A stretch of DNA of 64,000 nt from Pseudonocardia sp. SCN 73-27 (lineage in GTDB: Bacteria; Actinomycetota; Actinomycetes; Mycobacteriales; Pseudonocardiaceae). The notes under the pieces are model-generated. The model was not told the DNA's origin. It worked only from the letters and a program-made list of their open reading frames with translations, and did not search any database. Within the stretch, counting starts at the first letter, position 1; the number at the start of each line of letters is the position of its first letter. Positions 919 to 39,554 of this stretch are shown piece by piece. The DNA lies in NCBI GenBank assembly GCA_001725415.1, contig MEGH01000003.1:166185-230184 (forward strand). Reading direction: 5' to 3'. The position numbers and the translations under genes were made by a program.

Positions 919-1917
919 TCACCCCAGGGGGAAGACCTTCTGAGCGTTCCCCGACAGCACGGCTGCCTTCTCGTCATCAGACAGGAAGTCGAATCCTTCG
1001 ATGACAGGCCGGATGTCGTCGAAGTCCCGACCGGTTGCCGGGTCCGGCGCAGTGCCGCTCCCCGGGCGTTCGGTGCCGAACAGGCACCTGTCTGCGCCGA
1101 CCGTGCGCAGCAGCAACTCCAGCGACAACGGACTGTGCAGCACGGTGTCGAACCACAGCCGTCGAAGGCTCTCGTCGAAGGTCTCGTTGAGTCGCTGGCC
1201 CTTGTTGAGATTCGGGTGCGCACGCGCCGCGCGCCAACGGCCGATCTGATAGGGAACCGAACCGCCGCCGTGCGCCACGATCAGCTTCAGCTCCGGGTAA
1301 CGGATGAAGACCTCGGAGTTGAGCAGCGACAGGATGGCGATGCTTTCCTCGGTCACGAAGTGCTCACTGTAGGTTTCGCGGCCGTTGCGGCATGCCCCGG
1401 AGTGGATCAGCGCCGGGATACCGAGCTCGATCAGTGCCTCGTACACCGGATACCAGAAAGGGTCGCCCAGGGGTGGAACGGTGCCGATGCCCTCTGCCGG
1501 ATCGGGGTTCAGGACCGCGCCGACGGAGCCGAGGTCGGTGACGGTCTTGCGCAGGTTGTCCGCCCAGTCCTGCGGGGTCAGCTCGAGGGACTGGGGCATG
1601 GCCGCCACCCCGGCGAGGCGACCCGGGAACTGGGCCACCTGCCTGGCGATCGCATCGTTCACCGCGGCAGTCCACCACTCCACGACTCGGGCCGGCGTCG
1701 CCGAGTGAGCGGTGTGGTACGGCCTGGGCGAGATCAGCTGGACATCGGTGCCGACCCCGTCCATCACCGCGATCGTCCGGTCCCCGAAATCCTTGAGACG
1801 GGAGTCGGTCAGACCGGCACCGTTGTGACCGTGCGCACCGCCCGAGCACATCAATTGGGCCTGGTAGGCGTACAGCTCCGCCGGTGCGTTGACGTGGGCG
1901 TGCGCGTCGATGATCAT
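919..1917 (-). CDS. Amidohydrolase, LigJ/ACMSD-like (4-oxalomesaconate hydratase-like)
   Basis: 332 residues, amidohydrolase_2 family. The start at 1917 is set by the N-terminus MIIDAHAH (metal-binding HxH) and a Shine-Dalgarno AGGAG just upstream; it overlaps the stop of the preceding gene as ATGA. It resembles LigJ, the 4-oxalomesaconate hydratase of protocatechuate 4,5-cleavage: NPDP near residue 140, HGGGSVPYQIGR in the second half, FDTVLHSPLSLELL, then LFGTERPGSG and a TGRDFDD segment close to the C-terminus. LigJ adds water to a ring-fission product before aldol cleavage, which fits the RraA-type aldolase genes upstream. A related decarboxylase role is possible. Last gene of the 12-gene operon; a paralogue lies at 10,084-11,178. 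Confidence 0.85.
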   Translation of the reverse strand: MIIDAHAHVNAPAELYAYQAQLMCSGGAHGHNGAGLTDSRLKDFGDRTIAVMDGVGTDVQLISPRPYHTAHSATPARVVEWWTAAVNDAIARQVAQFPGRLAGVAAMPQSLELTPQDWADNLRKTVTDLGSVGAVLNPDPAEGIGTVPPLGDPFWYPVYEALIELGIPALIHSGACRNGRETYSEHFVTEESIAILSLLNSEVFIRYPELKLIVAHGGGSVPYQIGRWRAARAHPNLNKGQRLNETFDESLRRLWFDTVLHSPLSLELLLRTVGADRCLFGTERPGSGTAPDPATGRDFDDIRPVIEGFDFLSDDEKAAVLSGNAQKVFPLG

Positions 1918-3050
1918 CTTGTCTCCTGAGGGGATGAGGCCGGAAGGCCGACCTGATGGCGGAGGACGACCGGCCCACCCGTAACGGCTGATCGCCGCAC
2001 GGCCAGACACAGCTCCAGGGTCGCGACCCCCCACTCGCCCGAGTACGCGATCGAGGGCTCGCCGGTGAGGGCACGATCCAGTTGGTCGAGGACGGCGGCC
2101 CAGCCCGAGGGCTCGGCGGTCACGTCGATCTCGGAAACCCCGTCGGCGTCGAGGACCAGCAGCCCACGAGGTGTCGTCTGCGCGCCACCGCGTTCGAACG
2201 TGGCCACCGTTCGGCCGAACATCGGCGCCGGGTTCGGCGGGGCACCACTGCCGGGCAGGACGAAATGATCGGTCAGCGGCCAGGACGGGGAGATGTCCAC
2301 CGTGCCCGTCTCGCCGACGCCCCATGACGACAGCCGGCTGTCGAACCCGCCGTTGCCCGAGTAGTAGGCAGAGGCCGAGGTCCCGCCGCCGAATATGATC
2401 TGGGCGCTGAACCCGAGCTCGTGTCCCGGGTCGCCGGGGCCGAACAGACTGCCCGCGACAGAGCGCGCATCGCCACCGCAGATCAGCCTCAGCATGTCGA
2501 ACTGGTGAGCGCCCTGACGGAGCAGCAACCCGTTGCCGGAGCTCAGATCGAGATCCTCGGGTGTTCGCCGGCGCTTGTGCCAGTCGGTGTGGCAGCTCGA
2601 TTCGACGCTCAGCAGCTGGCCGAGCGTGGCTTCGGTGACCAACCGGCGAAGTGCGCGGACCGGCGCGTCCAGCGCATGGGTCGCCCCGACGATCAGGACG
2701 ACCCCGGCAGCCCGCGTGGCATCGACGGCTTGTTGCGCAGTCTCCACGTCAGCAGCAAGCGGTTTCTCGCAGACGATGTGCTTCCCGGCCCGCGCGACGA
2801 CGATGACACCTTCGAGGTGGTGGCGTGTCGGGGTGGCGAGGTAGACGGCGCCCACAGCAGGGAGGGCGGCCAGCTCCTCGACGTCGCGGACCACGGCCGC
2901 GGTGGTGTCCCGCGCCGCTCTCTCCCGCGCCGCGGCGTCGCGGTCCGCGACGCCGACCAACTCGAACCGAGGATCGAGCGAGACCGCGTCGGCCATCAGA
3001 CGCCCCGCGACGCCCCATCCGGCGATCCCGACCCCGATGCGGGCGTTCAT
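1914..3050 (-). CDS. Gfo/Idh/MocA-family dehydrogenase (Pht4/LigC-like role proposed)
   Basis: 378 residues. N-terminal Rossmann fold with GIAGWGVAGRL at residues 8-18, then the family motif CEKPLA and a C-terminal GFO_IDH_MocA beta-sheet domain. Start ATG at 3050 overlaps the upstream stop (ATGA), and its own stop overlaps the next start, so it is translationally coupled on both sides. Family members in aromatic catabolism include cis-dihydrodiol dehydrogenases of phthalate pathways and LigC, which oxidises the semialdehyde from protocatechuate 4,5-cleavage. Either step would fit between the Rieske/LigB enzymes and the LigJ-like hydratase of this operon; sequence alone does not decide. Confidence 0.85.
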   Translation of the reverse strand: MNARIGVGIAGWGVAGRLMADAVSLDPRFELVGVADRDAAARERAARDTTAAVVRDVEELAALPAVGAVYLATPTRHHLEGVIVVARAGKHIVCEKPLAADVETAQQAVDATRAAGVVLIVGATHALDAPVRALRRLVTEATLGQLLSVESSCHTDWHKRRRTPEDLDLSSGNGLLLRQGAHQFDMLRLICGGDARSVAGSLFGPGDPGHELGFSAQIIFGGGTSASAYYSGNGGFDSRLSSWGVGETGTVDISPSWPLTDHFVLPGSGAPPNPAPMFGRTVATFERGGAQTTPRGLLVLDADGVSEIDVTAEPSGWAAVLDQLDRALTGEPSIAYSGEWGVATLELCLAVRRSAVTGGPVVLRHQVGLPASSPQETR

Positions 3051-3676
3051 GCGAAGCCGTAGATGTCGAGCGTCGACTCGCCGGCTGCGATCCGCTCCAG
3101 GATCCCGCGTTCCGAGTCCATCCGCTGGGCGGCGCGGTCGCCGACGGCTGCCGCCTCGTCCTGGGCGACGATCACCACTCCGTCGGCGTCTCCGACAACC
3201 ACGTCGCCGGTGTGGACCTCGACTCCACCGACCGTGACAGGCTCGGCAGTACCGCCACCGGCTGGGTCCTTCGCCGTACCCCGCACGCAGAGCCCGCGTG
3301 CGAAGACGGGGAACCCGAGTTCGACCAGTTCGCGACGGTCGCGCACGGACCCGTCGATCACCAGCCCGAGCACTCCCCGCACCCGCGCTGCGGACGCGAG
3401 GATTTCTCCCCAGTAGCCGTAACCCTGTCCGGTGCGGACGCCGCTCACCTCGGCGACGAGGACATCGCCCGGAGAAGCCTCGTAGACCGCGCGATGCAGC
3501 CAGATGTTGTGCCCCTCCGTGAGGCGCACCGTGAAAGCCCGACCGCACAGCCGTGCCGCCGAGTCGAGAGGACGCACCCCCGGGTCCACGACCGTCGCTC
3601 CCGATTCGAGGAGCGTAGCGGCGCTGAACGCGGACACGGCCTCGACCTGCGCCGCCACCGTTGGGGGGGTGCTCAT
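3047..3676 (-). CDS. RraA-family aldolase/decarboxylase, copy 3
   Basis: 209 residues, the typical length for the RraA-like fold (4-hydroxy-4-methyl-2-oxoglutarate / 4-carboxy-4-hydroxy-2-oxoadipate aldolases, often misnamed dimethylmenaquinone methyltransferase). It shows the family signature G-x-I-D-G-x-x-R as LVIDGSVRDRREL and a C-terminal GDVVVGDADGVVI metal-binding-region motif. Start at 3676 overlaps the stop of copy 2 and its stop overlaps the dehydrogenase start. Such aldolases give pyruvate plus oxaloacetate or another pyruvate at the end of protocatechuate/gallate meta-cleavage. It is one of three tandem, clearly divergent copies. Confidence 0.88.
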   Translation of the reverse strand: MSTPPTVAAQVEAVSAFSAATLLESGATVVDPGVRPLDSAARLCGRAFTVRLTEGHNIWLHRAVYEASPGDVLVAEVSGVRTGQGYGYWGEILASAARVRGVLGLVIDGSVRDRRELVELGFPVFARGLCVRGTAKDPAGGGTAEPVTVGGVEVHTGDVVVGDADGVVIVAQDEAAAVGDRAAQRMDSERGILERIAAGESTLDIYGFA

Positions 3677-4338
3677 CGCGCTGCCGTCTGGAGCTGGTGG
3701 TATCCGAGGCGGCGCCGCACCTCGTCGAGGCGCTCACCCGTGGCGGCCGCTTCGCGGATGGCGGTCTCAGCGTCCTCGATCGCGATCGCGACCGCGAGCA
3801 CCTCCTCGGCCTCCCCTGCTGCAATCACCACGACCCCGTCCGCGTCGCCCAGGACCAGGTCGCCTGGATGCACGGTCACCGAGCCCAGCGTCACCGGCAC
3901 CTGCGTCGCGGACAGCCGCACCCGGTCCTTGCCGGTCTGCATGTTCCGGCCCCGGGCCAGCACCGGGTAGCGGAACTCGAGACTGGCGGCGACGTCCCGG
4001 CAGACACCGTGCAGGACCGTCCCCGAGATCCCGCGACGGCTGGCGACCGACGTCAGGATGTCTCCCCAGATCGTGCAGTCCAGCCGGCCGTCGTTGCTCA
4101 GAACCACGACCGAGCCCGGGTCCACGTCGTCGATGAAGTCGCCGACGGTTCCGCCCTGCTCGTCGACAGGTTCGTACTGCCCGGTGTAGGCCGGGCCGCA
4201 GACCCGGAAGGACGGGTCGAACGGGATGATGCCCGGCACCGCTCCTGCACGTCCCAGCTTGTCGAGCGCGTCGGACACCGCTGCCGTCGTGAGGCCGGAC
4301 AGCTGGTCGACCGCCTTCTTCGTCGCCTCAGCGTCCAT
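3673..4338 (-). CDS. RraA-family aldolase/decarboxylase, copy 2
   Basis: 221 residues, middle member of the RraA triplet. Family hallmarks are VSDALDKLG near the N-terminus, GTVLHGVCRDVAASLE in place of the usual G-x-I-D-G-x-x-R loop (Ile-Asp replaced by Leu-His), and GDLVLGDADGVVVIAA. The VLHG substitution in the substrate/metal loop is unusual and may mean altered specificity or a structural role. Its start overlaps the end of copy 1 by 11 bases, and its stop overlaps copy 3 (ATGA). Proposed role is aldol cleavage or oxaloacetate decarboxylation of the ring-fission product. Confidence 0.87.
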   Translation of the reverse strand: MDAEATKKAVDQLSGLTTAAVSDALDKLGRAGAVPGIIPFDPSFRVCGPAYTGQYEPVDEQGGTVGDFIDDVDPGSVVVLSNDGRLDCTIWGDILTSVASRRGISGTVLHGVCRDVAASLEFRYPVLARGRNMQTGKDRVRLSATQVPVTLGSVTVHPGDLVLGDADGVVVIAAGEAEEVLAVAIAIEDAETAIREAAATGERLDEVRRRLGYHQLQTAAR

Positions 4339-4990
4339 GGAGCATCTCCTCGTAGTTGCGGCCGAACACGACGGCCAGGGAGTCGCCGTTCTCCAGACCC
4401 CGCACCATCGCAGCCTCCTTGTCCGCCAGCGACTCCGCTACCGACAGCACTTCGTCGACCCGGTCCGACGGCACGACCACAGCACCCGTGCCGTCGGCGA
4501 GGACGAAGTCCCCGGTACGCACGGCGAGCCCGCCGACCCGAATCGGCTCTCCGACGGTGTCCTCGACGAACCGGCCGCGGGCGGTGAATGGCACCACTGC
4601 GCGAGCGGAGACCGGAAGGCCGAGCTCGCGGATCTCGTCGACATCCCTGCACGCGCCGTCGATCAGGACCCCTCCCAGCTCCCGCAACGTCGCCGCCCGC
4701 GCCAACAGGCCGCCCCAACTCGCGGAGGCAGGTCGCCCTTCGGTCTGCTGCTCGACGCAGATCACCTCTCCCGGCAGCGCCCTGTCCAGCGCCTGCGCAC
4801 CGAGATGGCGGGTCGACGTCCGACCGTCGGCAGGCACCGTTCGCATGGTGATCGCGCGCCCGGCGAGGCGGCTTCCCTCCCATATCGGCAGGATTCCGGC
4901 CACCGCGCCGGCCAGCCCCAGAGAGTCCAGCGCGTCGGAGACCATGCAGGAGTCCAGCGCGAGCAGACGGTCTCGCGTCGTCTCGCTCAT
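4328..4990 (-). CDS. RraA-family aldolase/decarboxylase, copy 1
   Basis: 220 residues. The start ATG at 4990 (MSETTRD) overlaps the stop of the dioxygenase gene as ATGA. It has VSDALDSLG, the canonical loop GGVLIDGACRDVDEI with the Asp/Arg pair expected for divalent-metal and enolate stabilisation, and GDFVLADGTGAVVV, where the usual GDADG is changed to ADGTG. It directly follows the extradiol dioxygenase, as expected for a meta-cleavage lower-pathway aldolase. The three copies differ at catalytic-loop residues, so a division of labour or heteromeric assembly is conceivable. Confidence 0.88.
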   Translation of the reverse strand: MSETTRDRLLALDSCMVSDALDSLGLAGAVAGILPIWEGSRLAGRAITMRTVPADGRTSTRHLGAQALDRALPGEVICVEQQTEGRPASASWGGLLARAATLRELGGVLIDGACRDVDEIRELGLPVSARAVVPFTARGRFVEDTVGEPIRVGGLAVRTGDFVLADGTGAVVVPSDRVDEVLSVAESLADKEAAMVRGLENGDSLAVVFGRNYEEMLHGR

Positions 4991-5958
4991 TCCGGCCTCG
5001 CCCAGGTGAAAAAGCCCATCCCACAGCCCGAACCCGCAGTCGAGCGGTAGGCCGGAACGTAGTCGACGACCTTGCCGGGGATGTCCTTCATCGCGGCGCC
5101 CACCGCGACCCAGTTCCGCAGTTCCGAGCTGCCTTCGGTGAGGCCGGCGTAGGGCAGAGCCGCCAGGTCGTCGTCGTCCTGACGCTCCAGCGCCCGCAGG
5201 ACCCGGCGGTCCAGCTCCTCGTCGATGATCGGGTGGGTCATCCCACCCGAGGCGATCAATGCGACCCGCAGGTCCGAGTCCCATGAGTCGATCGCGGACC
5301 GCAGCCCCCGGCCGAGCCCGACGCAGCGGCGTGGGGTCGGCTGGTTGGGCGGATAGTAAGTGTTGAGCATGATCGGAACCAGCGGGATGCGGGGGTGGCC
5401 CTCGAGCAACCGCCGATACACGAAGGTGAACGCGTGCCCCAATGAGCGGTCCTGGGGCTGCTCCGTGAACTGCCCGACGTCGAACTCGTCCTCGATCAGG
5501 CTCTCGACGAGGTGACGGCCCAGCTCGGGATGCGTGACGTAGGTATCGGTGTCGTCGGCGTGGTAGTAGCGGTAGGCGGACTCCATGGTGGGCGGGTAAC
5601 TCTCGGCGCCCGGCGGACGGTCGTCGAGTGAGGCCCCCCAGAAGATCGCCATCGCCGGCATGATGTCGTCGAGGAAGAGTTCGCGCTGGTCGTCGCCGAT
5701 GACCACGAGCACGTCAGGACGCAGCGCCAGCAGCGCGTCCCGGGACTCCTCCAGTGCGTGTTGACACGCCTCGTACCGGGCCGCCAGCACAGGCGGGACC
5801 AACTCGGTCTCGAGGTCGTCGACCTCTCGCGAGGACGGGATGACGTCAAGCTCGGCGAGACGGGGCTGCTCCAGGTCGCCGTGCGCTCGCCAGCCGCCCG
5901 GCTCGATCGAGAGCTGGGGGCTGTGCGACACGGCGACCCCACCCACGAGTAGCGCCAT
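4987..5958 (-). CDS. LigB-type class III extradiol ring-cleavage dioxygenase
   Basis: 323 residues, LigB superfamily. Residues 11-13 are SHS, with His12 at the position of the first Fe(II)-ligand histidine of LigB; a second candidate His is at 67 and ASGGMTHPIIDEELD supplies the C-terminal region with acidic residues. The catalyst would split an ortho-dihydroxylated aromatic acid next to a hydroxyl using O2. No separate LigA-like alpha subunit is visible in the window and the protein lacks a fused LigA domain, unlike gallate dioxygenase. It starts 1 base after the decarboxylase stop and overlaps RraA copy 1. Confidence 0.85.
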   Translation of the reverse strand: MALLVGGVAVSHSPQLSIEPGGWRAHGDLEQPRLAELDVIPSSREVDDLETELVPPVLAARYEACQHALEESRDALLALRPDVLVVIGDDQRELFLDDIMPAMAIFWGASLDDRPPGAESYPPTMESAYRYYHADDTDTYVTHPELGRHLVESLIEDEFDVGQFTEQPQDRSLGHAFTFVYRRLLEGHPRIPLVPIMLNTYYPPNQPTPRRCVGLGRGLRSAIDSWDSDLRVALIASGGMTHPIIDEELDRRVLRALERQDDDDLAALPYAGLTEGSSELRNWVAVGAAMKDIPGKVVDYVPAYRSTAGSGCGMGFFTWARPE

Positions 5959-5959
5959 C

Positions 5960-6733
5960 TCAAGTCCTCCTCAGGACGTCCGCGCGGTCGCCGAGGGCGA
6001 GGCGGTAATGGTCGAAGGTCCATTCGGCGTAGACCCGGGAGCCGTGCTGGTTGTTCACGAAACCGCCGACCTCCTTGATCTCGTGTTCGTCGAGCTCGAT
6101 CGGGCGCGCGCCGGGCACGGAGTGCAGGCCCAGCGTCAGATCGGCGAGGGCCTCGAGCTTGATTGCACGCACGGTGGCTTCCTGGACGCTCGCACCGACC
6201 GCCACGACGCCGTGGCCCCGCAGCATGCAGGCGTCGGTGTCACCGAGGGTTGCGACGACCTGCTGGCCGAGGTCGGCGGTGCTGATCAGCACGGAGTTGT
6301 CGAACACCGGGACGCCGCGGACCGTGAGTTCCAGCATCCCCGGGTCGTAAGCCCCGACCACCGGACGTAGGGGCAGCGCGAGGATTCCGCAGATGAGCGA
6401 CGAGCGCGGGTGACCGTGCACCACGGAACTGGTCCCGGGACGGGCACGATAGATCTCCGAATGGATCGGCCACTCTCCCGGGAGAATGTAACCGCCCTCG
6501 AGATCGTCATTGGTCGTTTCGAGGTTCACCCGCTTGACGTCGTCGGAGACGGTGAACTCGACCCCCGGGTCCTGCGGCGGGCGGCAACGGACGACGAACT
6601 CGTCGGTTCCCGGGATTCGGGCGCTCACGTGCCCGGTGATCTCCCGGACGCAGCCGGTCCTGGCGAGAATCCGGCACGAGAGAGCGACGAGCTTGCGCAG
6701 CTCCTCGACCTGGGCGTCAGCGCTGCCGCTCAT
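5960..6733 (-). CDS. Class II aldolase/adducin-family protein, likely aromatic decarboxylase
   Basis: 257 residues with the class II aldolase zinc site: HGHPRSS near residue 103, an acidic residue in the IHSEIYRARPG segment, and LRGHGVVAVG near residue 169. In Gram-positive phthalate pathways a protein of this family decarboxylates dihydroxyphthalate to protocatechuate. Beside a phthalate-type Rieske oxygenase and a LigB dioxygenase that is the most economical reading, although a genuine aldolase is not excluded. Start 6733 overlaps the stop of the acyl-CoA synthetase gene (ATGA), so it is translationally coupled. Confidence 0.83.
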   Translation of the reverse strand: MSGSADAQVEELRKLVALSCRILARTGCVREITGHVSARIPGTDEFVVRCRPPQDPGVEFTVSDDVKRVNLETTNDDLEGGYILPGEWPIHSEIYRARPGTSSVVHGHPRSSLICGILALPLRPVVGAYDPGMLELTVRGVPVFDNSVLISTADLGQQVVATLGDTDACMLRGHGVVAVGASVQEATVRAIKLEALADLTLGLHSVPGARPIELDEHEIKEVGGFVNNQHGSRVYAEWTFDHYRLALGDRADVLRRT

Positions 6734-8892
6734 TCGTCCTCCCCGTTCGGGTCCGCCTCGTGACCGGCCGGACCCCGCTCGACCAGTGCCGCAGCGACCT
6801 CGGCCATGTCGGCCGGCTCGGCGAACACCCGCAGGCCATTCCGCGCGAGGACCGCCATACCGTCCTCTGCGGCCGCGCGGGCAACGAGCCAGGACACCAG
6901 CACCGGGACATCCGACCGCGCAACGGCATCGACGATCTCCGAGGCCACGCGGACAGCCTCGTCCCCGGTGATGCTCGTGAGCACCACACAGACCAGGTCC
7001 ACTCCGGGGTCACCGGCTACCGCCGTCACCACCTGACGCAGGGCTCCCGGCGTGAACGCACCCTCCGCGGTGACGTCGAGCGGGTTGTCGACGTGCGCGA
7101 ATGAGGGCAGCACGTCAGCGACAGACGTCACGGTGTCGGCTCCGAGCCGGGCGACCTCGACGCCGCTACCGGACAGAAGATCCGCGGTTGCGCTGCCCGC
7201 GCCGCCCGATGTGGTGACCACCGCGGCCCGGTTTCCCCGGGGCACCGAGGTGTTGCCGAGCGTCCAGGCCGTGGCGAGCAGGGAAGACATCCGGTCGACC
7301 CGGATCGCGCCCTCCTGCCGCAGCACTGTGCGGTAGACCTCCTCGCTCCCGGCGAGTGCCCCGGAGTGCGACGCAACCGCACGGCGCCCGACGTCGGTCG
7401 TCCCGGTCTTGAACACCACCACCGGCTTGCCGGCGTCCCGAGCCGCGCTGAGTGCGGCCCGGAACCGCTGACCGTCCGGCACGCCTTCCAGGAAGATCGC
7501 CAGTGCCGCGGTGGACTTTCGGGCTGCGTAGTACGACAGGTAGTCCGCCACGTCGAGCGTCGCCTGGTTACCGACGGTGACCCAGTCCCCGATCCCGTAT
7601 CCCTCGGCCAGCTCCCGGGAGACAAGGCTGCCGGCGACCGCACCGCTCTGCGCGATGAGGGTGGTGCCGGCCGGGACCAGACCGGCCACATCGACGGCCT
7701 GGCTGAAGGTCGCGGCCATCGGAAGGTGCGCGTTGACCAGACCAATCGTGTTGGGCCCGCACAGAACGGTCGACGAGCCCGCGACGGCCTCCCGCAGGTC
7801 CGCTTCGAGGGCCTTCCCGCCAGGGCCGGCCTCGCCGAACCCCGAGGCGAACACGATCACAGCAGGGACACCCAGCCGGACGCAGTCACGGACCGCCTCG
7901 ACGCTCGCAGCGGCCGGGAGCGATACGCAGACCAGATCGGGTACGTGGGGCAGGTCGGTGAGCGACAGGTAGGTCGGCAGCCCACCGATCTCGCCCCCGG
8001 ACGGGTTGACCGGGTAGACCTCGCCGGGGAATGCGTGGTCGACCAACGACCGCAGGATGCGCCCGCCAGGGCGGGTCGGCGTTCGTGACGCTCCGACGAC
8101 TGCGACGCTGCGAGGCTCGACAAGTGCAGAGAGTTCCGGTGGGGGGCCGGACGGTGCGGCGTCGGCAACCGGCCGCACACGCCCGGCCGCGTCGAGCACG
8201 ACGCAGCTGCCGTCCGCCAGTACACGGACGGGGTTGAGGTCCAGCTCCGCCAGCTCTGGCACCAGTGTCACCATGTCACCCACGGCTGCGACAAGTTCGC
8301 AGAACGCGGTGGTGTCCACCGCGGCAGCACCGCGGAAGCCGTCGAGCAGGGGCGCGCTCCTCAGCGACGAGAGCATCGCGGCGACGTCGGCAGGCGTCAA
8401 CGGAGGCAGGCGGCGTGCGACGTCGCGGAACAGCTCCACAGTCGTCCCGCCGAGGCCGACGACCAGCATCGGACCGAAAACGGCGTCGCGGTCACTGCCC
8501 AGGAACAGGTCCACCCCCGGCGGTGCCATCGGCTGGACGACGACGACGCCGTCCGTCAGGTTGTGCCCGACAAGGCGTGTGGTGAGCCGGTCGTAGGCCG
8601 CGGACGCCTCCCCGGCCGAGGTCACGCCGAGTTCGACGAGGCCGAGCTCTGTCTTGTGCAGCGCACCGTCGGACACCGCTTTGAGGACTACGGCTGCGCC
8701 GGCGCCCAGGGTCTCCTCGGCTGCGGCGGCCGCTTCCACACCGGATCCGACGATGGTGCTCCGCACGAACGGCAGCTCCAGCGGCGCCAGGAGCGCCCGC
8801 ATCGAGTTCTCGCCGAGCTGAGCGGTGCCGAGCCTCGTTGCGTGTTCGCGAATGCCGGCCGGCACCGGGCCGTCGTCGAGCAGAACCTTCAT
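6730..8892 (-). CDS. NDP-forming acyl-CoA synthetase, fused, ATP-grasp domain first
   Basis: 720 residues. An ATP-grasp (succinyl-CoA synthetase beta-like) domain occupies about residues 20-240 and is followed by a CoA-binding domain (VGAS at 266-269) and the flavodoxin-like ligase domains. The phospho-relay histidine is His509 in SHSGALAG. Many bacterial fused relatives have the CoA-binding half first; here the order is reversed. The enzyme would make an acyl-CoA and ADP+Pi from a carboxylate. It lies 13 bases downstream of an acyl-CoA dehydrogenase, suggesting activation then dehydrogenation of a side chain or ring-cleavage fragment. A GGAG Shine-Dalgarno precedes the ATG. Confidence 0.88.
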   Translation of the reverse strand: MKVLLDDGPVPAGIREHATRLGTAQLGENSMRALLAPLELPFVRSTIVGSGVEAAAAAEETLGAGAAVVLKAVSDGALHKTELGLVELGVTSAGEASAAYDRLTTRLVGHNLTDGVVVVQPMAPPGVDLFLGSDRDAVFGPMLVVGLGGTTVELFRDVARRLPPLTPADVAAMLSSLRSAPLLDGFRGAAAVDTTAFCELVAAVGDMVTLVPELAELDLNPVRVLADGSCVVLDAAGRVRPVADAAPSGPPPELSALVEPRSVAVVGASRTPTRPGGRILRSLVDHAFPGEVYPVNPSGGEIGGLPTYLSLTDLPHVPDLVCVSLPAAASVEAVRDCVRLGVPAVIVFASGFGEAGPGGKALEADLREAVAGSSTVLCGPNTIGLVNAHLPMAATFSQAVDVAGLVPAGTTLIAQSGAVAGSLVSRELAEGYGIGDWVTVGNQATLDVADYLSYYAARKSTAALAIFLEGVPDGQRFRAALSAARDAGKPVVVFKTGTTDVGRRAVASHSGALAGSEEVYRTVLRQEGAIRVDRMSSLLATAWTLGNTSVPRGNRAAVVTTSGGAGSATADLLSGSGVEVARLGADTVTSVADVLPSFAHVDNPLDVTAEGAFTPGALRQVVTAVAGDPGVDLVCVVLTSITGDEAVRVASEIVDAVARSDVPVLVSWLVARAAAEDGMAVLARNGLRVFAEPADMAEVAAALVERGPAGHEADPNGEDE

Positions 8893-8905
8893 CGGGACTC
8901 CACGT

Positions 8906-10087
8906 TCACTGTCCTGCCCTGGCTTCCCGCAGGGCGTTGCGCGCGATCAGCACACGGTGGATGTCGTTGGCGCCCTCGACGATCTGGAACACCTTCGCGT
9001 CGCGGTAGGCCCGCGCGACGGGGTATTCCTCGGAGACGCCGTACGCCCCGTGGATCTGGATGGCGTCCGTCGCGACGGACTGTGCGGTGTCGCTGGCGAA
9101 CATCTTCGCGATGCTGGACTCCTGCCGCGCGCGCTCTCCGCGTTCCATCGCGTGTGCGCATTGCTCGGTCAGGAGCCGGGCAGCGCGGATCCCGACCACC
9201 ATCGCGCTGAGCTTGTCCTGGACGAGCTGGAAGTCTGCGATCGGCTGGCCGAACACGATGCGATCCTGCGCGTAGCCGAGGGAGGCATCCAGGCAGGACT
9301 GTGCAAGGCCTACGGCCCGCGAGGCGACGGAGAGGCGGCCTCGCTCGACTGCAGTCATCGCGATGGCGTAGCCCTCCCCCTCCTCACCCAGCAGAGCGTC
9401 CGGGGCGAGCTCGACGTCATCGAAGAGCAACTCGCCCGAGCACAGTGGGCGGAATCCGAGCTTGTTGCGGAAGGGCGCGGTTCTGACACCGGGAGCATCA
9501 GCGGGAACGATGAAGGCGGACAGGCCGTCGCGTCCGAGCGATGGGTCCCGCGTCGCGAACGTCACGAAGAACGATGCGATGTCGAGGTTGGTGATCCAGG
9601 CCTTGGCTCCGCTGAGGACGAAGCCGTCCGCCGTCGTACGGTACCGCGTCTGCGTCCCGGCCACGTCACTGCCGGACCTGGGCTCCGTGACGCCGGCCCC
9701 GCCGAAGATTCGGCCTTCCGCGAGTGGAGTCAGCCAACGGTTCTTCTGGGCGTCGGTCCCGAAGCGCAGCAGGCCGGAGCCTACGAGCGCGGAGGGCATG
9801 CTCATCAGGACGCCGAGGCAGTGATCGACCCGCGAGACCTCCTCGATGATCCGCGCGAACGTCGGATGGTCCAGCCCCAGGCCGCCCCACTCGAGCGGAA
9901 CCGTCCCGCCGAAGAAGCCCAGGTTCGCCATCTCGGCCAGCAGGTCTCGCGGCAGCCGCTCGGCGGCGTCGTAGTCACGCACGAGTGGAGCGACACGCTC
10001 ACGGGCGAACTCACGCACCAGCGCGACGAGCTCGTCGGCGTCGGCCTTGCTGCCGCTCCCGACCTCGGCTTGGGCGGTGCTGGTCAC
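8906..10087 (-). CDS. Acyl-CoA dehydrogenase
   Basis: 393 residues, the usual size of FAD acyl-CoA dehydrogenases. The GTG start at 10,087 overlaps the stop of the upstream amidohydrolase as GTGA. GGAGVTEPRSGSD near residue 130 and the C-terminal QIHGAYGVSEEYPVAR with VEGANDIHRVLIAR are the standard FAD/substrate motifs; the catalytic glutamate is expected in the VEGAND segment. It introduces an alpha,beta double bond into an acyl-CoA and passes electrons to ETF. It is paired with the NDP-forming acyl-CoA synthetase that follows, so it probably acts on that enzyme's product. Confidence 0.9.
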   Translation of the reverse strand: MTSTAQAEVGSGSKADADELVALVREFARERVAPLVRDYDAAERLPRDLLAEMANLGFFGGTVPLEWGGLGLDHPTFARIIEEVSRVDHCLGVLMSMPSALVGSGLLRFGTDAQKNRWLTPLAEGRIFGGAGVTEPRSGSDVAGTQTRYRTTADGFVLSGAKAWITNLDIASFFVTFATRDPSLGRDGLSAFIVPADAPGVRTAPFRNKLGFRPLCSGELLFDDVELAPDALLGEEGEGYAIAMTAVERGRLSVASRAVGLAQSCLDASLGYAQDRIVFGQPIADFQLVQDKLSAMVVGIRAARLLTEQCAHAMERGERARQESSIAKMFASDTAQSVATDAIQIHGAYGVSEEYPVARAYRDAKVFQIVEGANDIHRVLIARNALREARAGQ

Positions 10088-11178
10088 GAGGCCGACGCGG
10101 CGGGTTCGGTGCCGGCAGCCCGCTCGAGGTTCCGGCGAAGCCGCGGGTAGATGTCCAGGGCCGTGTCGCCCAGCATCAGATCGAGGTCCTTCTCGCTGTT
10201 GGCGGGATTGGACCGCAGCACCGCTGCGATGTCGTCCGCCCAGCCCTCGGCCGGCGTCTTCTTGTGCGAACCGTCGCCCGGCCGCTCGGTGCCGAGTACC
10301 ACCCGGTCCGCGCCGATCGCCTGAACAAGGAGTTCCAGCGACTCCGGTGTGTACAGACAGGTGTCGTAGTAGAGCTTGCGGATCGCGTCGTCGAAGGTGC
10401 CCGCGCGACCCGTGCCTTCCCAGTAGGTCCCGCGGAATCGGCCGATCTGGTACGGAATCGCGCCACCGCCGTGCGGAACGACGACCTTGAGATCCGGGAA
10501 GGCGTCGAAGACCTCGGACTGGGCCAGCGACATGACCGCCGTGCTCTCCTCGGAGATGAAGTGCAGGCTCTGGTTCTCCCGCAGCGACACACAGCCCGTC
10601 GAGTGGACCAGCATCGGGAGCTCGTACTCGACCAGCTTCTCGTACAGTGGCCACCAGAACTCGTCGCCGAGGCCCGGTACGTCTTGCGGGGCTCGGCCCT
10701 CGCTGGGGTCCGGGTTGACCAGAACCCCGACGAAGCCGAGCTCGGTGACGCAGCGCTCGAGCTCCTCGAAGACGACGGAGATCGGTTCGTTCCACACGAC
10801 GGGCAAGTTGGCGATGCCCTGGATGCGCTCCGGGTAGAACTCCGACTGCACGGCGATGCAGTCGTTCACGGCCTGGGCCCACCAGTGGACGATGCGAGCC
10901 GGCTTCTCGGAGTGCATGAGGCTGTAGGGCCTCGCCGAGACCAGCTGGACGTCGGTACCGACCCGGTCGAGCCAGGCGATGTGTTCCTCGGCGAAGTGCT
11001 TGAGCTCCTCGGGCGGGATCACCCCGGTGCGCCCGTAGCTCATTCCCTCACGGTGCTCCTCGAAGCCCTTCAGCCTGCGGCCGTAGTGACCGCGCGTACC
11101 GATCAGGAACTCGCGATAGGAGTACAGCTCTGCGGGGGCGACGATGTGACCATGGACGTCGACGACTTTGCGCGGCAT
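10084..11178 (-). CDS. Amidohydrolase, LigJ/ACMSD-like, second copy
   Basis: 364 residues, amidohydrolase_2 family, start ATG at 11,178. Metal ligands include VDVHGH at residues 6-11; downstream are VNPDPSEG, VPHGGGAIPYQIGRFRG and YYDTCLYTPESLELL, then LGTERPGDGSHKKTP, all close to LigJ-type hydratases. It differs from the copy at 919-1917 by a longer N-terminal insert and a 25-residue C-terminal tail. The two copies may serve successive or parallel steps. Its stop overlaps the acyl-CoA dehydrogenase GTG start. The 66 bases separating it from the small upstream gene form the largest gap inside the operon. Confidence 0.85.
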   Translation of the reverse strand: MPRKVVDVHGHIVAPAELYSYREFLIGTRGHYGRRLKGFEEHREGMSYGRTGVIPPEELKHFAEEHIAWLDRVGTDVQLVSARPYSLMHSEKPARIVHWWAQAVNDCIAVQSEFYPERIQGIANLPVVWNEPISVVFEELERCVTELGFVGVLVNPDPSEGRAPQDVPGLGDEFWWPLYEKLVEYELPMLVHSTGCVSLRENQSLHFISEESTAVMSLAQSEVFDAFPDLKVVVPHGGGAIPYQIGRFRGTYWEGTGRAGTFDDAIRKLYYDTCLYTPESLELLVQAIGADRVVLGTERPGDGSHKKTPAEGWADDIAAVLRSNPANSEKDLDLMLGDTALDIYPRLRRNLERAAGTEPAASAS

Positions 11179-11244
11179 TGCTACGGTCCTGTCCTCGTGT
11201 GAAGGGTGGAGCGAGGGGCGCTGGGTGAGCGCTCTCGCCGGACG

Positions 11245-11472
11245 TCAGTTGACGATCACTCGGATGGAGTGACCTGTGGCGATGTGGTGGTCTACCGCCT
11301 CCTGCAGTGTCCGTTCGCCGTTGGCGGCGACCCACGCACAGGAGCCGGCACGACAGGTCGCGACCGGGAGCCACTCTCCGCAGAGCCCGCAGATCCCACC
11401 GACGTCGAGATGCCCGTCGGCGCAGGTCCGGGCCGTCGGATCCACGGACTGGCGGTCCATGACGGGGCTCAA
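11245..11472 (-). CDS. Small Cys/His-rich protein, putative zinc-binding, unknown function
   Basis: 75 residues. The ATG at 11,472 overlaps the Rieske oxygenase stop as ATGA, which together with codon quality supports a real gene. Cysteines fall at 17, 28, 31, 40 and 45 and histidines at 62, 63 and 68. C28-x2-C31 plus C40-x4-C45-x16-H62-x5-H68 looks like one or two small zinc knuckles. I recognise no family. Its position straight after the oxygenase suggests a partner, maturation factor or regulator of that enzyme; it is not a recognisable plant-type or Rieske ferredoxin. Confidence 0.65.
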   Translation of the reverse strand: MSPVMDRQSVDPTARTCADGHLDVGGICGLCGEWLPVATCRAGSCAWVAANGERTLQEAVDHHIATGHSIRVIVN

Positions 11473-12764
11473 TGGGCCGAGGTGACGGCGTCTTGCCCGT
11501 CCGCGATCACCGCGTCGATACGACGCACGAGCTCGGGCAGGCGTTGGCTGTAGCGCGACTGCAGCCGCAGGAAGGAGGCGAACGGGTTGGCGCCCGTCCC
11601 GCTGTCGAGACCGAGCTCCTTCTGCTCCTGGGGAAGGTTGATGACGTAGTCGTCCTCGGGAGCGAGCACGTTCATCACGCTCTCGCCGTTGGCGTTGGCG
11701 TCGAGCTGGGCGCGCAGCAGGTTCCGGTACATCGCGATGCCCTGGTCGGACGAGCTGAGATGCTCGTCATCGCGCGAGGTCCTCCCGCCCTGGGTCACCC
11801 ATACCATCGCGTCCTGGGAGTCGATGGTGTCCATCAGGAAGGATCCATCGGGCCCCTGCAAGGTGACCGGATAAGTGTCGGGCAGGTGCAGGATCTCGTC
11901 GACCTGGTCGGCGAAGCGCTCGGGAACCTCGAACCATTGGTACCAGAAGTGAAGGGTGTGGGTGTCGTCCATCGGTACCCGGATCTGGAAGGAGGCCAGG
12001 CCGTTCCCGCCGACCTTGAGGATGTTCGGGAAGACGACCGGGTGGCCGACACGCCAGTCCTCGTCCTCTTCACTCTGTCCTTCGCGCAGCCGCCGCTTGA
12101 TGATCCCGTACTCGACGAGGTCGAAAGCGATCTTGACGTGGTGGCCACCCAGAACGGTGGGTTCCTTGCCCTCCCGCCCCAGGTGGTAGTTGTAGAGCCG
12201 CCCGTGCAGCCACTCGACATGTGTCGGGTCGAACGAGTTCTCCATGATCTGGAGCCAGTTGCAGGGAATCACCGCATGACCGATGTCGCGGAACTTGCCC
12301 TCGCCTTCCTGCCAGGTGAACAGGTCGAAGCGGGGAAACGCCGGCGGCGGCGCCTCCCCCAGATAGGCGAACACCAGTCCTCCGAGGGCGCGGACCGGGT
12401 AGCCCTTGATGCGGGAGCGCTCGCGCAGCGACGGCGAATCCGGGGTCTGGTTCGGCTGCTCGAGGCACGTACCTTCGCCGTCGAACAGCCAGCCGTGATA
12501 AGGACACCGCAGCCCGCCGTTCTCGGGAAAGCCGTATCCGAGTGACGCCCCACGGTGCGGGCACCGCTCGCTGACGAGGCCGAGGCCGCCGGTGTCGTCG
12601 GCGTACAGCACGAGGTCTTCGCCGAGAATCCTAACGCGCTTGACCGGATTGTCATGGAGGTCGGTCTCAGTGGCCACCGGTAGCCAGTAGCGCCTGTACA
12701 GCTCTCCCATCGGCGTACCAGGGCCGACCTGTGTCAGTCGGTCGTTGAGGTCAGCACGCAGCAT
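11469..12764 (-). CDS. Rieske non-haem iron oxygenase, phthalate 4,5-dioxygenase-type oxygenase component
   Basis: 431 residues. Rieske [2Fe-2S] ligands are Cys68/His70 (CPHRG) and Cys87/His90 (CPYHGW); the mononuclear iron site includes His182 and His187 in NSFDPTHVEWLHG. The N-terminus (VGPGTPMGELYRRYW) is typical of the homo-oligomeric Pht3/aryl-demethylase class, which needs no beta subunit. The reaction is ring dihydroxylation or O-demethylation of an aromatic acid. First gene of the 12-gene operon, with GAGGAG as Shine-Dalgarno and a promoter 75 bases upstream. No FMN/[2Fe-2S] reductase is adjacent; the divergent ferredoxin at 13,282 is a candidate electron donor. Confidence 0.9.
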   Translation of the reverse strand: MLRADLNDRLTQVGPGTPMGELYRRYWLPVATETDLHDNPVKRVRILGEDLVLYADDTGGLGLVSERCPHRGASLGYGFPENGGLRCPYHGWLFDGEGTCLEQPNQTPDSPSLRERSRIKGYPVRALGGLVFAYLGEAPPPAFPRFDLFTWQEGEGKFRDIGHAVIPCNWLQIMENSFDPTHVEWLHGRLYNYHLGREGKEPTVLGGHHVKIAFDLVEYGIIKRRLREGQSEEDEDWRVGHPVVFPNILKVGGNGLASFQIRVPMDDTHTLHFWYQWFEVPERFADQVDEILHLPDTYPVTLQGPDGSFLMDTIDSQDAMVWVTQGGRTSRDDEHLSSSDQGIAMYRNLLRAQLDANANGESVMNVLAPEDDYVINLPQEQKELGLDSGTGANPFASFLRLQSRYSQRLPELVRRIDAVIADGQDAVTSAH

Positions 12765-12838
12765 CGAGACTCCTCACGCGACGATCGCCAGTGGCCGGTC
12801 ACGACAGGCATCCGCGCCATCGGCCACTCTACTGCTAG

Positions 12839-12867
12839 AGGATAATCATAGAACCAACGTCGGTCAA
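12839..12867 (-). promoter_or_regulatory. Promoter of the 12-gene aromatic catabolic operon
   Basis: Read on the minus strand, TTGACC and TATCCT are separated by 17 bases, an excellent sigma70/HrdB-type match in otherwise GC-rich DNA. The predicted transcript starts about 70 bases before the Rieske gene. The -10 region is embedded in an AT-rich ATGATTATCCT element that recurs at other island promoters. Confidence 0.7.
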
Positions 12868-13281
12868 GGCACTCCTCCAGGGCGACCACGGAGCCCTCCG
12901 TCACCCCAGTGGATCGTCGTGAACATGCGCGAAGGTCCTCGTGCGTGCGCCGCGGCCGTGTACCGGAGTCCGCCGTTGGTCCGTCGTTAGCGCGCTACTG
13001 CGCGTCGGCCATATCTAGGTTAATATTGGGAGCGGCCTAGCGCCGTACGTGCCGGCGACCCGGGACACGCCCTGGAACTCCTCGGGGCGGCCCCGCTCCA
13101 GTGCAGCGCCGGTGGACATCGCCGCGCAGCGTTCGCTGGAGCTGTGCACACCTGCCATGCAGGCCCGACGCTCGGAACCGGCTCGTTCGCGACCCCTGCA
13201 GATGCTGCTACTGGCTCGCAGGCGACCACAGACGGGGGTGTGCAGCGTTCGACCCCACGTCTCCCGTACCAGGAGGTACCC
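12868..13281. other. Divergent intergenic region between Rieske operon and ferredoxin
   Basis: No convincing gene here. It contains a 10-base palindrome TAGCGCGCTA at 12,988-12,997 and an AT-rich patch around 13,014-13,026 (ATATCTAGGTTAATATT) that includes a TAATAT -10-like hexamer. That patch is a plausible promoter or operator zone for the rightward ferredoxin-MFS genes, although no good -35 is visible. Confidence 0.4.
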
Positions 13282-13596
13282 ATGCCGTATGTGATCACCG
13301 AAGCCTGCGTCGACGTGATGGACCGCAGCTGCCTGCTGCAGTGTCCGGTGGACTGCATTCACGAGGGGGTGCGGATGCTCTACATCGACCCGGGCGCATG
13401 CATCGACTGTGCCGCGTGCGAGCCGTCGTGCCCGCAGGGCGCCATTCACCTGGACGAAGCGATACCGGCGAACCTCACCAAATACGTCTCGGTGAACGCC
13501 GAGTTCTTCGGATCCGACGAGTTCGGACCGGCCGATCCTCGAACAGGCTGCCCAGCCGGGGACCATCCGGTCGTCGCTGGACTCGCGGCGCGCTGA
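13282..13596 (+). CDS. fdxA: 7Fe ferredoxin ([3Fe-4S][4Fe-4S], FdxA type)
   Basis: 104 residues. Start ATG at 13,282 (MPYVITEAC) is preceded by a perfect AGGAGG six bases upstream, which rules out the longer in-frame start. Cysteines 9, 17 and 50 fit a [3Fe-4S] cluster and 21, 40, 43 and 46 a [4Fe-4S] cluster, as in seven-iron ferredoxins; the extra free cysteine often found at position 12 is Val. It is divergent from the Rieske operon and could feed electrons to it, but seven-iron ferredoxins more often serve P450s and general metabolism. Confidence 0.93.
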   Translation: MPYVITEACVDVMDRSCLLQCPVDCIHEGVRMLYIDPGACIDCAACEPSCPQGAIHLDEAIPANLTKYVSVNAEFFGSDEFGPADPRTGCPAGDHPVVAGLAAR

Positions 13597-14873: not shown

Positions 14874-14897
14874 CACAACGCGCACTAACATTATCCT
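14870..14897 (+). promoter_or_regulatory. Promoter for the luciferase-like monooxygenase gene
   Basis: TTGACA (14,870-14,875) and TATCCT (14,892-14,897) are separated by 16 bases. The -35 overlaps the stop codon of the MFS gene. The -10 lies in AACATTATCCT, almost the same AT-rich element as at the Rieske promoter and near 20,465. Confidence 0.7.
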
Positions 14898-15002: not shown

Positions 15003-16025
15003 ATGCCGGCCAGCCCTACCCCCGCCCCGGGCACTGCAGTCGTCGGCACCGGCGCCGGTCGCCCGACCTTCGGCCTCTTCCCACCGGTGCTGTACCCCAT
15101 CAACCTGCGCGACTGGGAGATCGACGCCGGACCCGCCGAGGTCAGCGAGATCGGCCGGCTCGCTGATGAACTGGGCTATGCGTTCATCGCCTGCGGCGAC
15201 CACGGTGCGCTGGCGACGAGCGAGCTCGCGCTGTACGGACGTGCTCGTTTTTACGACCCGATCGCCACCCTTGGCTATCTCGCCGCGGCCACCTCGGCCA
15301 TCAAGCTCGTGACGCTCGTGTATCAAGCCCATCTCCGGAGCCCGTTGGTCGCGGCCAAAGAGCTCGCCACCATCGACCATCTCTCCGGGGGCCGACTCAT
15401 CGCCGGTTTCGGTGTCGGTAGCCGCAAGTACGAAGCGGATGCGGCCGGAGTCGACTTCTCCCGACGCGGCGCGATCGTCGACGACCACGTTGCGGCGATG
15501 ATCGCCCTCTGGTCGAACGCAGTGGCCAGCTACGACGGCGAGTACGTCCAGTTCCGAGACCTGATCTGCGAGCCGCGTCCTGTCCAGCTCCCGCGCCCAC
15601 GGATCTGGGTGGGCGGGAATCGGGGTGTCGGGCTGCGCCGTGCCCTGCGACTCGGGGACGGTTGGGCTCCCTTCGGTGCGACCGCCGATCAGATCACCGG
15701 AGTGATCGCAGACGCGGCGGAGACCCCGGAATGGCGCGACCGCGCCGCTGGATTCCAGGTGATTGTTCCGCTCACCCCACTCGGTGGGCGAGCCCCGCGC
15801 GGCGAACCCGCTCCTCTTTTCGACGAACCCAGCGACGAGGCCGCCGAGCGCGCCGCGGAGCGCGTCGCATGGTGGCGCACTCGGGGCGCGACCGACTTCA
15901 TCGTCGACCTTCCCGCTCCGTCACGCGCCGGATTCGACGAGGCGCTGCGGTGGTTCGCCGAGCAAGCCGCTCCCCTCGCCGGCCTGGTGGCCGCATCCCC
16001 GTTCGTCGAAGGAGACAAGCAATGA
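15003..16025 (+). CDS. Luciferase-like (LLM) flavin or F420-dependent monooxygenase/oxidoreductase
   Basis: 340 residues, bacterial-luciferase TIM-barrel family. Typical segments are LADELGYAFIACGDH, the SAIKLVTLVYQ strand, HLSGGRLIAGFGVGS and RIWVGGNRGVGLRRALRLGDGW. The cofactor could be FMNH2 or F420; both occur in actinomycetes. It is transcribed from its own promoter and coupled by ATGA overlap to the following SDR, so the pair likely performs an oxidation plus a dehydrogenation. The substrate is unknown. Confidence 0.87.
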   Translation: MPASPTPAPGTAVVGTGAGRPTFGLFPPVLYPINLRDWEIDAGPAEVSEIGRLADELGYAFIACGDHGALATSELALYGRARFYDPIATLGYLAAATSAIKLVTLVYQAHLRSPLVAAKELATIDHLSGGRLIAGFGVGSRKYEADAAGVDFSRRGAIVDDHVAAMIALWSNAVASYDGEYVQFRDLICEPRPVQLPRPRIWVGGNRGVGLRRALRLGDGWAPFGATADQITGVIADAAETPEWRDRAAGFQVIVPLTPLGGRAPRGEPAPLFDEPSDEAAERAAERVAWWRTRGATDFIVDLPAPSRAGFDEALRWFAEQAAPLAGLVAASPFVEGDKQ

Positions 16026-38753: not shown

Positions 38754-39554
38754 GTGGAACGTCAACAGCAGAGCGGCAGCTCCGAAGGGACGGCCGAGAG
38801 GACGCCCCGCCGCCGCCCCGAGAGCCGTCGGGCACACAAGGTTGCGCTCACCATCGCGCAGCAGATCGTTGACGACATCACCGAAGGCGATCTCGGTCCT
38901 GGCACGAAGCTCGCCAGCGAGCGCGAGATGCTCGAGCGGTTCTCCGCCGGGCGTGGGACATTGCGCGAATCGCTCCGCTTCCTCGAGATGAGCGGCGCCA
39001 TTGCTGTCAAGGCGGGTCCTCACGGTGGCCCCATCGTCGGTGATCCTGACGGCGAGGACCTGGCCCGCGTCCTCGGTCTCTTCCTCCAGCTGCGGCGTGT
39101 CCCGTTCAAGGCGATCGTCGACGCCCGCGAGATCCTCGAGCCGGAGCTCGCCGGGCTCGCCGCCGAGCGAGGCTCGGACAGCCAGCTCGCCGATATCGGG
39201 GATTCGATCGAGGGGATGCAGGCATTTCTCGACGACGAGCGCAACTTCCTGGCGGAGAACGATCACTTCCATGCCGCGGTCGCGTCCGCCGCTGGCAACG
39301 AGCTCTTCGCGCTGGTCATTGCCTCCATGCACACGATTACCGACGGCGTCCCGCTCGGCCTCAGCTACGAGCTGTCCCGGCGGGAGTCCGTCCTGCGCTC
39401 CCACGAAGAGATCTTCGAGTCCATCAAGACTCGGGATGCCGAGGGGGCGCGATGGGCGATGCGCAAACACATGCGGCGTTTCACTGCCCGTGTGTCGACG
39501 GACTTCCCGGCGGCCTACGAGAAGCCCCTTCGCTGGCGTGATCTGGCCCCGTGA
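38754..39554 (+). CDS. GntR-family transcriptional regulator, FadR/FCD subfamily
   Basis: 266 residues from GTG 38,754 with AGGAAGG nine bases upstream. The winged helix spans about residues 30-95 (GTKLASEREMLERFSAGRGTLRESLRFLEMSG), and an all-helical FCD ligand domain follows, with the metal/ligand-binding histidines expected in NDHFHAAVASAAGNE and SHEEIFESIKTRD. It is the only regulator inside the island and so the prime candidate to control its operons in response to a carboxylic acid intermediate. Confidence 0.93.
   Translation: MERQQQSGSSEGTAERTPRRRPESRRAHKVALTIAQQIVDDITEGDLGPGTKLASEREMLERFSAGRGTLRESLRFLEMSGAIAVKAGPHGGPIVGDPDGEDLARVLGLFLQLRRVPFKAIVDAREILEPELAGLAAERGSDSQLADIGDSIEGMQAFLDDERNFLAENDHFHAAVASAAGNELFALVIASMHTITDGVPLGLSYELSRRESVLRSHEEIFESIKTRDAEGARWAMRKHMRRFTARVSTDFPAAYEKPLRWRDLAP

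Follow-up and report, generated by a model that had tools for sequence, protein, structure and literature searches.

A conserved twelve-gene operon of Pseudonocardia combines phthalate-type upper enzymes with a LigY-type lower part

An operon with two LigY-type amidohydrolases

An operon of twelve minus-strand open reading frames (ORFs) at positions 919-12764 of a 64,000-nt stretch of DNA from Pseudonocardia sp. SCN 73-27 (the window) raises the question of which aromatic acid it serves, and of how the opened ring is taken apart. The original prediction was that phthalate is converted to protocatechuate and degraded further by 4,5-cleavage, with LigJ-like hydratases and RraA aldolases. The homology of the operon proteins shows that the upper part is of phthalate type and the lower part of LigY type, and it is from this homology that we infer every reaction and substrate discussed below. 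Protein families were assigned from Pfam and NCBIfam. In order of transcription, the genes are as follows.

11469..12764, minus strand: Rieske oxygenase alpha subunit, 431 amino acids (PF00355, 68.4 bits; PF19301 LigXa_C, 44.7 against a cut-off of 27)
11245..11460, minus strand: small cysteine/histidine-rich protein, 71 amino acids, of no known family
10084..11178, minus strand: LigY_A, a LigY-type amidohydrolase (LigY clade; Gln at LigY Tyr190)
8906..10087, minus strand: acyl-coenzyme A (CoA) dehydrogenase (Pfam)
6730..8892, minus strand: nucleoside diphosphate (NDP)-forming acyl-CoA synthetase (PF13549, PF13607, PF13380)
5960..6733, minus strand: class II aldolase-family decarboxylase, PhtC type (NF053537, 211.5 bits against a cut-off of 200)
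4987..5958, minus strand: LigB-type class III extradiol dioxygenase (PF02900, 67.6 bits; Gln91 aligned to LigB His61)
4328..4990, minus strand: RraA1, motif G-X20-RD-X2-E (RraA tree, motif alignment)
3673..4338, minus strand: RraA2, motif D-X20-RD (Pfam, RraA tree, motif alignment)
3047..3676, minus strand: RraA3, nearest to 4-hydroxy-4-methyl-2-oxoglutarate (HMG)/4-carboxy-4-hydroxy-2-oxoadipate (CHA) aldolases of LigK type (3noj, 115.6 bits; LigK clade)
1914..3050, minus strand: Gfo/Idh dehydrogenase, dihydroxyphthalate-dehydrogenase-like (PDB 7wzd, 171.7 bits)
919..1917, minus strand: LigY_B, a LigY-type C-C hydrolase in its core-module form (LigY clade; zinc ligands kept)

Relatives were gathered by an alignment-based scan of GTDB species contigs with the LigB-type dioxygenase, a scan with the single window protein having given no match; the best 80 of 484 were kept, so that counts among them are not prevalences. 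Two of these 80, from Amycolatopsis eburnea (L027) and Streptomyces brasiliensis (L028), carried all twelve genes in the same order, which is the arrangement that the original prediction had proposed to look for in other actinomycetes. Identity to the window proteins was 83-85% for LigY_A, 78% for the acyl-CoA dehydrogenase, 75% for LigB, 74% for LigY_B, 72-75% for the Rieske protein, 65-66% for RraA2, 65% for PhtC, 63-65% for RraA1, 62-64% for the synthetase, 57-60% for RraA3, 56-57% for Gfo and 55-57% for the small ORF. Because every one of the twelve ORFs, even the small one, has a collinear ortholog in these two other genera (55-85% identity), we regard them as genes and not as chance, and the predicted count of twelve minus-strand genes is confirmed. 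The small protein itself had no Pfam match at 0.001 and no plasmid homolog at 0.01. Most junctions had been expected to be ATGA/GTGA overlaps: overlaps were found at 7 of the 11, but the 4-nt type accounts for six of these and the seventh is 11 nt long, the other four junctions being gaps of 1, 8, 13 and 66 nt (with the ATG of the small ORF taken at 11460). The Streptomyces operon holds one additional gene, encoding a luciferase-like oxidoreductase 52% identical to the product of window 15003-16025.

Among the genomes compared, orthologs of LigY_A were found only in twelve-gene operons. No match above 54% was present elsewhere among 62 genomes of the genus (own genome included), and among 394 sampled genomes of the class the top other match was 49%. 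Since two other genera carry the operon and LigY_A orthologs were otherwise not found in these samples, the operon is probably an accessory set that moves between genera. Judged by homology, it is a real, conserved operon that follows a familiar general pattern but has its lower pathway assembled in a new way.

The evidence for a LigY-type lower part comes from the two amidohydrolases, neither of which is the LigJ-like hydratase that had been predicted. LigY_A scored 274 bits to the LigY structures in the PDB (5vn5, 6e6i) and at most 158 bits to 4-oxalomesaconate (OMA) hydratases, and LigY_B 290 against at most 179 bits. In a tree of 44 rows, LigY of Sphingobium lignivorans SYK-6 was nested within a clade of 26 rows containing both window proteins (Shimodaira-Hasegawa approximate likelihood-ratio test, SH-aLRT, 96), with a Polymorphobacter plasmid protein (L021) as its nearest neighbour; LigJ lay outside, in a separate clade of six rows (SH-aLRT 100). 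This was a quick tree with SH-aLRT support only, in which a plasmid protein taken as LigI served only as a very distant outgroup, and its one very long outgroup branch carried a warning that long branches meet there. At eight LigY positions (67, 73, 148, 187, 194, 197, 273 and 284) the three LigY_A rows agree with the 23 other LigY-clade rows, whereas none of the six LigJ-clade rows does. The zinc ligands of LigY, which we take to be H6, H8, H179 and E282, are kept in both window proteins; they are also kept in LigJ and hence are not diagnostic. On PDB scores, tree placement and the eight clade-specific positions, we reject an identity as LigJ-like OMA hydratases for both proteins.

No LigI, the 2-pyrone-4,6-dicarboxylate (PDC) hydrolase, was named among the 40 PDB matches of LigY_B or the six of LigY_A at 1e-20. 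The lower route is probably hydrolytic, and therefore the absent LigI, LigU and LigA need no filling in. To our knowledge, LigY chemistry is known from one lignin-dimer pathway. A route of the 4-hydroxypyridine type was set aside, its amidohydrolase belonging to a different family according to the KpiC paper.

The dioxygenase, the RraA proteins and a core found in four phyla

The predicted ring-opening enzyme had protocatechuate 4,5-dioxygenase as its best PDB match, and Pfam gave no LigA domain match in it. The iron site of LigB consists of H12, H61 and E242 (two His, one Glu), and in both alignments with the LigB structure Gln91 of the window protein fell on His61. Of 94 proteins found, one was dropped by length; among the 93 aligned (window included), the His61 column holds Gln in 89 and His in 4, and residues equivalent to His12, His195 and Glu242 are each retained in 92. 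The two-His-one-Glu site is therefore not the usual one in this family, where His12 and Glu242 are kept and the place of His61 is mostly taken by Gln, and these alignments put the dioxygenase in a LigB family that has diverged. Gln was also present in three more distant plasmid homologs (L024-L026). His occupied the column in plasmid LigAB, in L001-L003 of the own genome and in 1b4u; two of the four His rows (L021_19776 and L096_4859) are distant, at 28-29% identity. Sampling of the order turned up LigB homologs in 3 of 249 genomes (E <= 1e-30), and sampling of the phylum in 3 of 396 (1e-40); both samples include the own genome. On a number of Chloroflexota contigs, several of them short, a Gln-type LigB gene stands in a stretch without the RraA/LigY core (L037, L040, L042-L047, L049, L053-L055).

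RraA1, RraA2 and RraA3 fell into three separate clades of a 70-row tree whose bootstrap had not settled (support 100/98, 99/98 and 100/100, respectively). Each clade has members from Actinomycetota, Pseudomonadota, Chloroflexota and Bacillota, and on this phylogeny the clades are old subfamilies. LigK of Pseudarthrobacter lies within the RraA3 clade (100/100), and RraA1 and RraA2 lie outside it. The RraA metal-site motifs, reportedly from the work of Mazurkewich in 2014, we take to be D-X20-R-D or G-X20-R-D-X2-E/D. The motif residues are present in all 26 RraA1 rows and in 22 of 23 RraA2 rows (one truncated), and RraA3 has D or E in 19 of 19; the window RraA3 carries E at the motif position, which is not the exact metal-site motif.

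Where either RraA1 or RraA2 was found in a fetched locus, the two co-occurred in 20 of 27 cases. LigB, RraA1, RraA2 and a LigY-like gene stood together in 18 of 88 loci, 15 of the 18 having RraA3 too; the 88 comprise the 80 most similar relatives and eight loci chosen for a LigB homolog, many of them short, so that the count is no prevalence. One of the 18 modules (L069) has an amidohydrolase outside the LigY clade. Five further loci were chosen by LigY match (L129-L133), and four of them contained RraA1-3 together with LigB and LigY; the remaining one is a short contig. This core of LigB-type dioxygenase, LigY and RraA1-3 recurs in Actinomycetota, Pseudomonadota, Bacillota and Chloroflexota, the last with a SAR202 genome among them, and contig C31 of the own genome carries another, diverged module with beta-oxidation genes (L015). 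The occurrence of the LigY hydrolase clade in a module of four phyla suggests that carboxylated aromatics are degraded by a widespread route not yet characterised.

A predicted route for a carboxylated aromatic and its alternatives

The upper part of the operon is phthalate-like by family, as had been predicted from its Rieske, Gfo/Idh and class II aldolase genes. The Rieske protein matched best, over its residues 2-192 and with 160.9 bits, the PDB entry 7fhr of a putative phthalate 4,5-dioxygenase, and the PhtC-like protein exceeded the NCBIfam cut-off for 3,4-dihydroxyphthalate decarboxylase. The Gfo/Idh protein scored 172 bits to 4,5-dihydroxyphthalate dehydrogenase (7wzd) and 56 bits to PmdC, which we take as the LigC counterpart, and we reject an identity as LigC semialdehyde dehydrogenase. 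The same three families serve in phthalate degradation (4,5-dioxygenase and Gfo/Idh dihydrodiol dehydrogenase, with PhtC of the 3,4-route), but the window operon differs from it in having no reductase and in a lower pathway unlike the usual protocatechuate cleavage. The operon encodes no reductase partner for the Rieske oxygenase, in agreement with the original prediction. Elsewhere in the own genome, the reductase encoded near the Streptomyces copy has three homologs at 44-48% identity, nearly full length on contigs C39 and C5 and covering residues 62-331 on C99, with pieces on C31. On the last of these contigs, beside the second core module, the reductase gene lies in two pieces, one with an internal TAG (L015 10942-11430; G000:C31:29942-30430).

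The NDP-forming synthetase and the acyl-CoA dehydrogenase, remarked upon as additions, are true members of the operon, kept in both other genera and with homologs in the divergent locus L133. There they stand, in a different gene order, with Rieske, Gfo and core genes and a reductase that has NAD-binding and C-terminal 2Fe-2S domains. Other modules have further CoA-activation or beta-oxidation genes: an AMP-ligase in L013, and an acyl-CoA dehydrogenase, CoA-transferases, an enoyl-CoA hydratase and a thiolase in L015. Rieske, Gfo and PhtC homologs occur together with LigY and LigB in two alphaproteobacterial loci (L151 and L152; the class of a Bradyrhizobium), and SYK-6 LigY has a match at E <= 1e-100 in 7 of 11 genomes of their family.

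We consider it reasonably probable that the operon encodes a route for a carboxylated aromatic that is oxidized, decarboxylated, opened by extradiol cleavage and hydrolysed by LigY, one product being converted to pyruvate by RraA proteins and the other, an acid, being activated with CoA. The Rieske oxygenase would dihydroxylate the ring with the help of a reductase encoded elsewhere (alternatively, it would O-demethylate), the Gfo/Idh enzyme would restore aromaticity, and the PhtC-like enzyme would remove a carboxylate and leave a catechol. After ring opening by the LigB-type enzyme, a LigY-type enzyme would hydrolyse a C-C bond to yield an acid, R-COOH, and a fragment like 4-carboxy-2-hydroxypentadienoate (CHPD). 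The RraA proteins would turn this fragment to pyruvate, RraA1 and RraA2 being placed at CHPD hydration because they are conserved genes left without a role. In a seventh step, the synthetase and the acyl-CoA dehydrogenase would begin beta-oxidation of the released acid, which we picture as a CoA ester because of these two genes and the similar genes in other modules.

In SYK-6, LigY yields 5-carboxyvanillate and CHPD, according to PMC6874591. CHPD is hydrated to HMG and HMG is cleaved to two pyruvates in PMC12673573, where the SYK-6 hydratase is marked as not identified and a mannonate dehydratase is proposed for Paenibacillus; related literature includes PMC12997858, PMC7356986 and PMC5065237. 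RraA1 and RraA2 are candidates for the step marked as not identified in SYK-6. It is possible, although we hold it doubtful, that this is a cross-phylum module in which an extradiol dioxygenase family with a His-Gln-Glu iron site is followed by a new hydratase/isomerase that RraA1 and RraA2 form, perhaps with RraA3 in a mixed oligomer, and that converts CHPD to HMG. Besides offering candidate enzymes for the SYK-6 step, the operon draws attention to a family of dioxygenases in which a residue of the iron site is altered. Among the matches listed in our literature search, which left most subscription papers uncovered, there was no paper on the gene set of the operon, no report of Gln as an iron ligand of LigB-type enzymes and nothing on a CHPD hydratase besides PMC12673573. 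The three aldolase-like genes and the altered iron-site residue make the operon, on sequence grounds, a variant that we did not find described. The suggestion of a new pathway variant thus stands as to the combination of genes, with a lower half that is of LigY type and not protocatechuate 4,5-cleavage with LigJ.

Several observations weigh against the proposed route. LigY_A and its two orthologs carry Gln at LigY Tyr190, a position at which the other 23 LigY-clade rows agree, and LigY_A has no separate step of its own in the pathway; it may act as an additional hydrolase on a different product. The phthalate-like upper enzymes alone do not require a C-substituted ring, and RraA3 scored under the curated LigK cut-offs (138.3 against 304.5 and 159.6 against 179). 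A RidA gene is present in 10 of the 18 core modules and absent from the window operon, and the chemistry may differ accordingly; given this absence, RidA was not taken to point to an amino-aromatic substrate. The chemistry may also be wider than proposed, as plasmids pNL1 and pLA1 carry LigY, RidA, RraA1 and RraA2 together, and the annotation of the stretches examined shows neither LigB nor RraA3. The loci in which RidA accompanies the core are L013, L015, L020, L022, L031, L032, L038, L059, L066 and L083. On the two sphingomonad plasmids the module (L124, pNL1, 12001-14833; L125, pLA1, 10001-12821) adjoins ring-hydroxylating dioxygenase genes, and RraA2 is annotated as a diguanylate cyclase.

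Among the alternatives, a hydrolytic branch of protocatechuate 4,5-cleavage is unlikely but not negligible. Plain phthalate would be converted to protocatechuate, and LigY would free formate from the ring-cleavage semialdehyde to leave the same CHPD fragment, replacing LigC, LigI, LigU and LigJ at one stroke. Catechol meta-cleavage has such a hydrolytic branch, and both the phthalate-type upper enzymes and the absence of LigC-, LigI- and LigJ-like enzymes from the operon are consistent with one here. However, SYK-6 LigY works on a biphenyl product, as judged from PDB names and PMC6874591. The hydrolytic branch would also leave the NDP-forming synthetase and the acyl-CoA dehydrogenase without a role, and the LigB-type enzyme has a changed iron ligand and no LigA domain match.

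The pathway proper of the lignin biphenyl 5,5'-dehydrodivanillate (DDVA), LigXa-LigZ-LigY of SYK-6, with the Rieske enzyme as a LigXa-type O-demethylase, is improbable. The likeness extends over a LigXa_C-type Rieske protein, a LigB-superfamily dioxygenase (the superfamily in which we place LigZ), a C-C hydrolase of the clade that includes SYK-6 LigY, the expected CHPD product and a pyruvate aldolase step. In contrast to the SYK-6 system, the window operon, from another phylum, has two LigY and three RraA proteins, CoA-activation genes, and Gfo/Idh and PhtC steps for which the known DDVA route offers no place. No protein like LigW, the 5-carboxyvanillate decarboxylase, is encoded within the operon (LigW structures gave only about 43 bits to LigY_B), the rest of the genome not having been searched for LigW. 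That the Rieske protein has its top PDB match in a putative phthalate 4,5-dioxygenase is a weak argument against the DDVA pathway, since LigXa structures were not among the matches.

Least probable of all is the route first predicted, in which protocatechuate undergoes ordinary 4,5-cleavage (LigABCIUJK) by LigJ hydratases and RraA aldolases with the missing steps encoded elsewhere, for although the upper enzymes are of phthalate type, RraA3 groups with LigK, the operon has a LigB-superfamily enzyme, and another LigB homolog with the His ligand is encoded on contig C4 of the own genome (L001), the operon lacks a LigA domain, neither amidohydrolase is LigJ- or LigI-like, the Gfo protein is not LigC-like, and the dioxygenase belongs to a different, diverged LigB family.

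A promoter motif and the surrounding catabolic genes

Four features upstream of the operon may bear on its regulation.

12839..12867, minus strand: promoter-like site, TTGACC-17-TATCCT, carrying CTATGATTATCCT at 12839-12851 (promoter scan)
14885..14897, plus strand: second motif copy with one mismatch (motif scan)
15003..16025, plus strand: luciferase-like (LLM) F420/flavin oxidoreductase (TIGR03619, 201.5 against a cut-off of 166.9; homologs at 52% in L028 and 72% in G961)
38754..39554, plus strand: GntR/FCD regulator (Pfam; homologs at 67-71% beside the L027 and L028 operons)

The strong promoter predicted before the operon corresponds to the first of these sites, read from 12867 to 12839, and its motif has counterparts in the two other genera, where they stand 75-80 bp before the operon. 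Two promoter-like sites were found in a scan of 12400-13700 against 0.1 expected, the other one lying within the Rieske gene. In all three genera the 13-mer CTATNATTANCCT is located 74-80 bp upstream of the Rieske gene. The motif pattern was built from the three operon sites and the site before the GntR gene of L027, four sites that are not independent. In the window it occurs twice with at most one mismatch (0.01 expected): one copy is that of the operon, and the other precedes the LLM gene by 105 bp.

Exact sites numbered two in the own genome (G000), six in Amycolatopsis (G961) and three in G962, with none in any reversed control; independent of the motif definition were one, four and two of these, respectively. 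They lie within 37 kb in G961, within 24 kb in G962, and 44 kb apart on contig C3 in G000. When one mismatch was allowed, there were 9 sites against 1 in the control for G000 and 9 against 2 for G961; in G962 the motif was not above its control (4 against 4), a further point against our reading. Genes behind motif sites include the operon and those for a cytochrome P450, a GntR regulator and a PrpB/PEP-mutase-family lyase (under curated cut-offs). Gene calls outside the operon were made by a codon-score method devised for this analysis, and the sites at C3:154827 and C13:9802 have no called gene downstream in the right direction. The LLM oxidoreductase is a probable member of the regulon, and the GntR/FCD protein is a candidate regulator of the operon.

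Genes shared with Amycolatopsis encode a P450 (78%), a zinc alcohol dehydrogenase (86%), ATP-binding cassette (ABC) importer proteins (74-85%), the LLM oxidoreductase (72%), two short-chain dehydrogenases/reductases (SDRs; 70 and 77%) and a molybdenum hydroxylase (61%). By these comparisons the operon sits in a catabolic island, the promoters of which in part share its motif, and GntR regulators are encoded close by. Further catabolic genes on the minus strand at 22568-33382 comprise a hydantoinase A/B pair, ABC importer genes, SDRs and a PhyH gene. The large subunit of the molybdenum hydroxylase is present in the window as two ORFs (17451-19534, minus strand), and as a single ORF of 702-708 amino acids at C13:1575-3701 and in G961.

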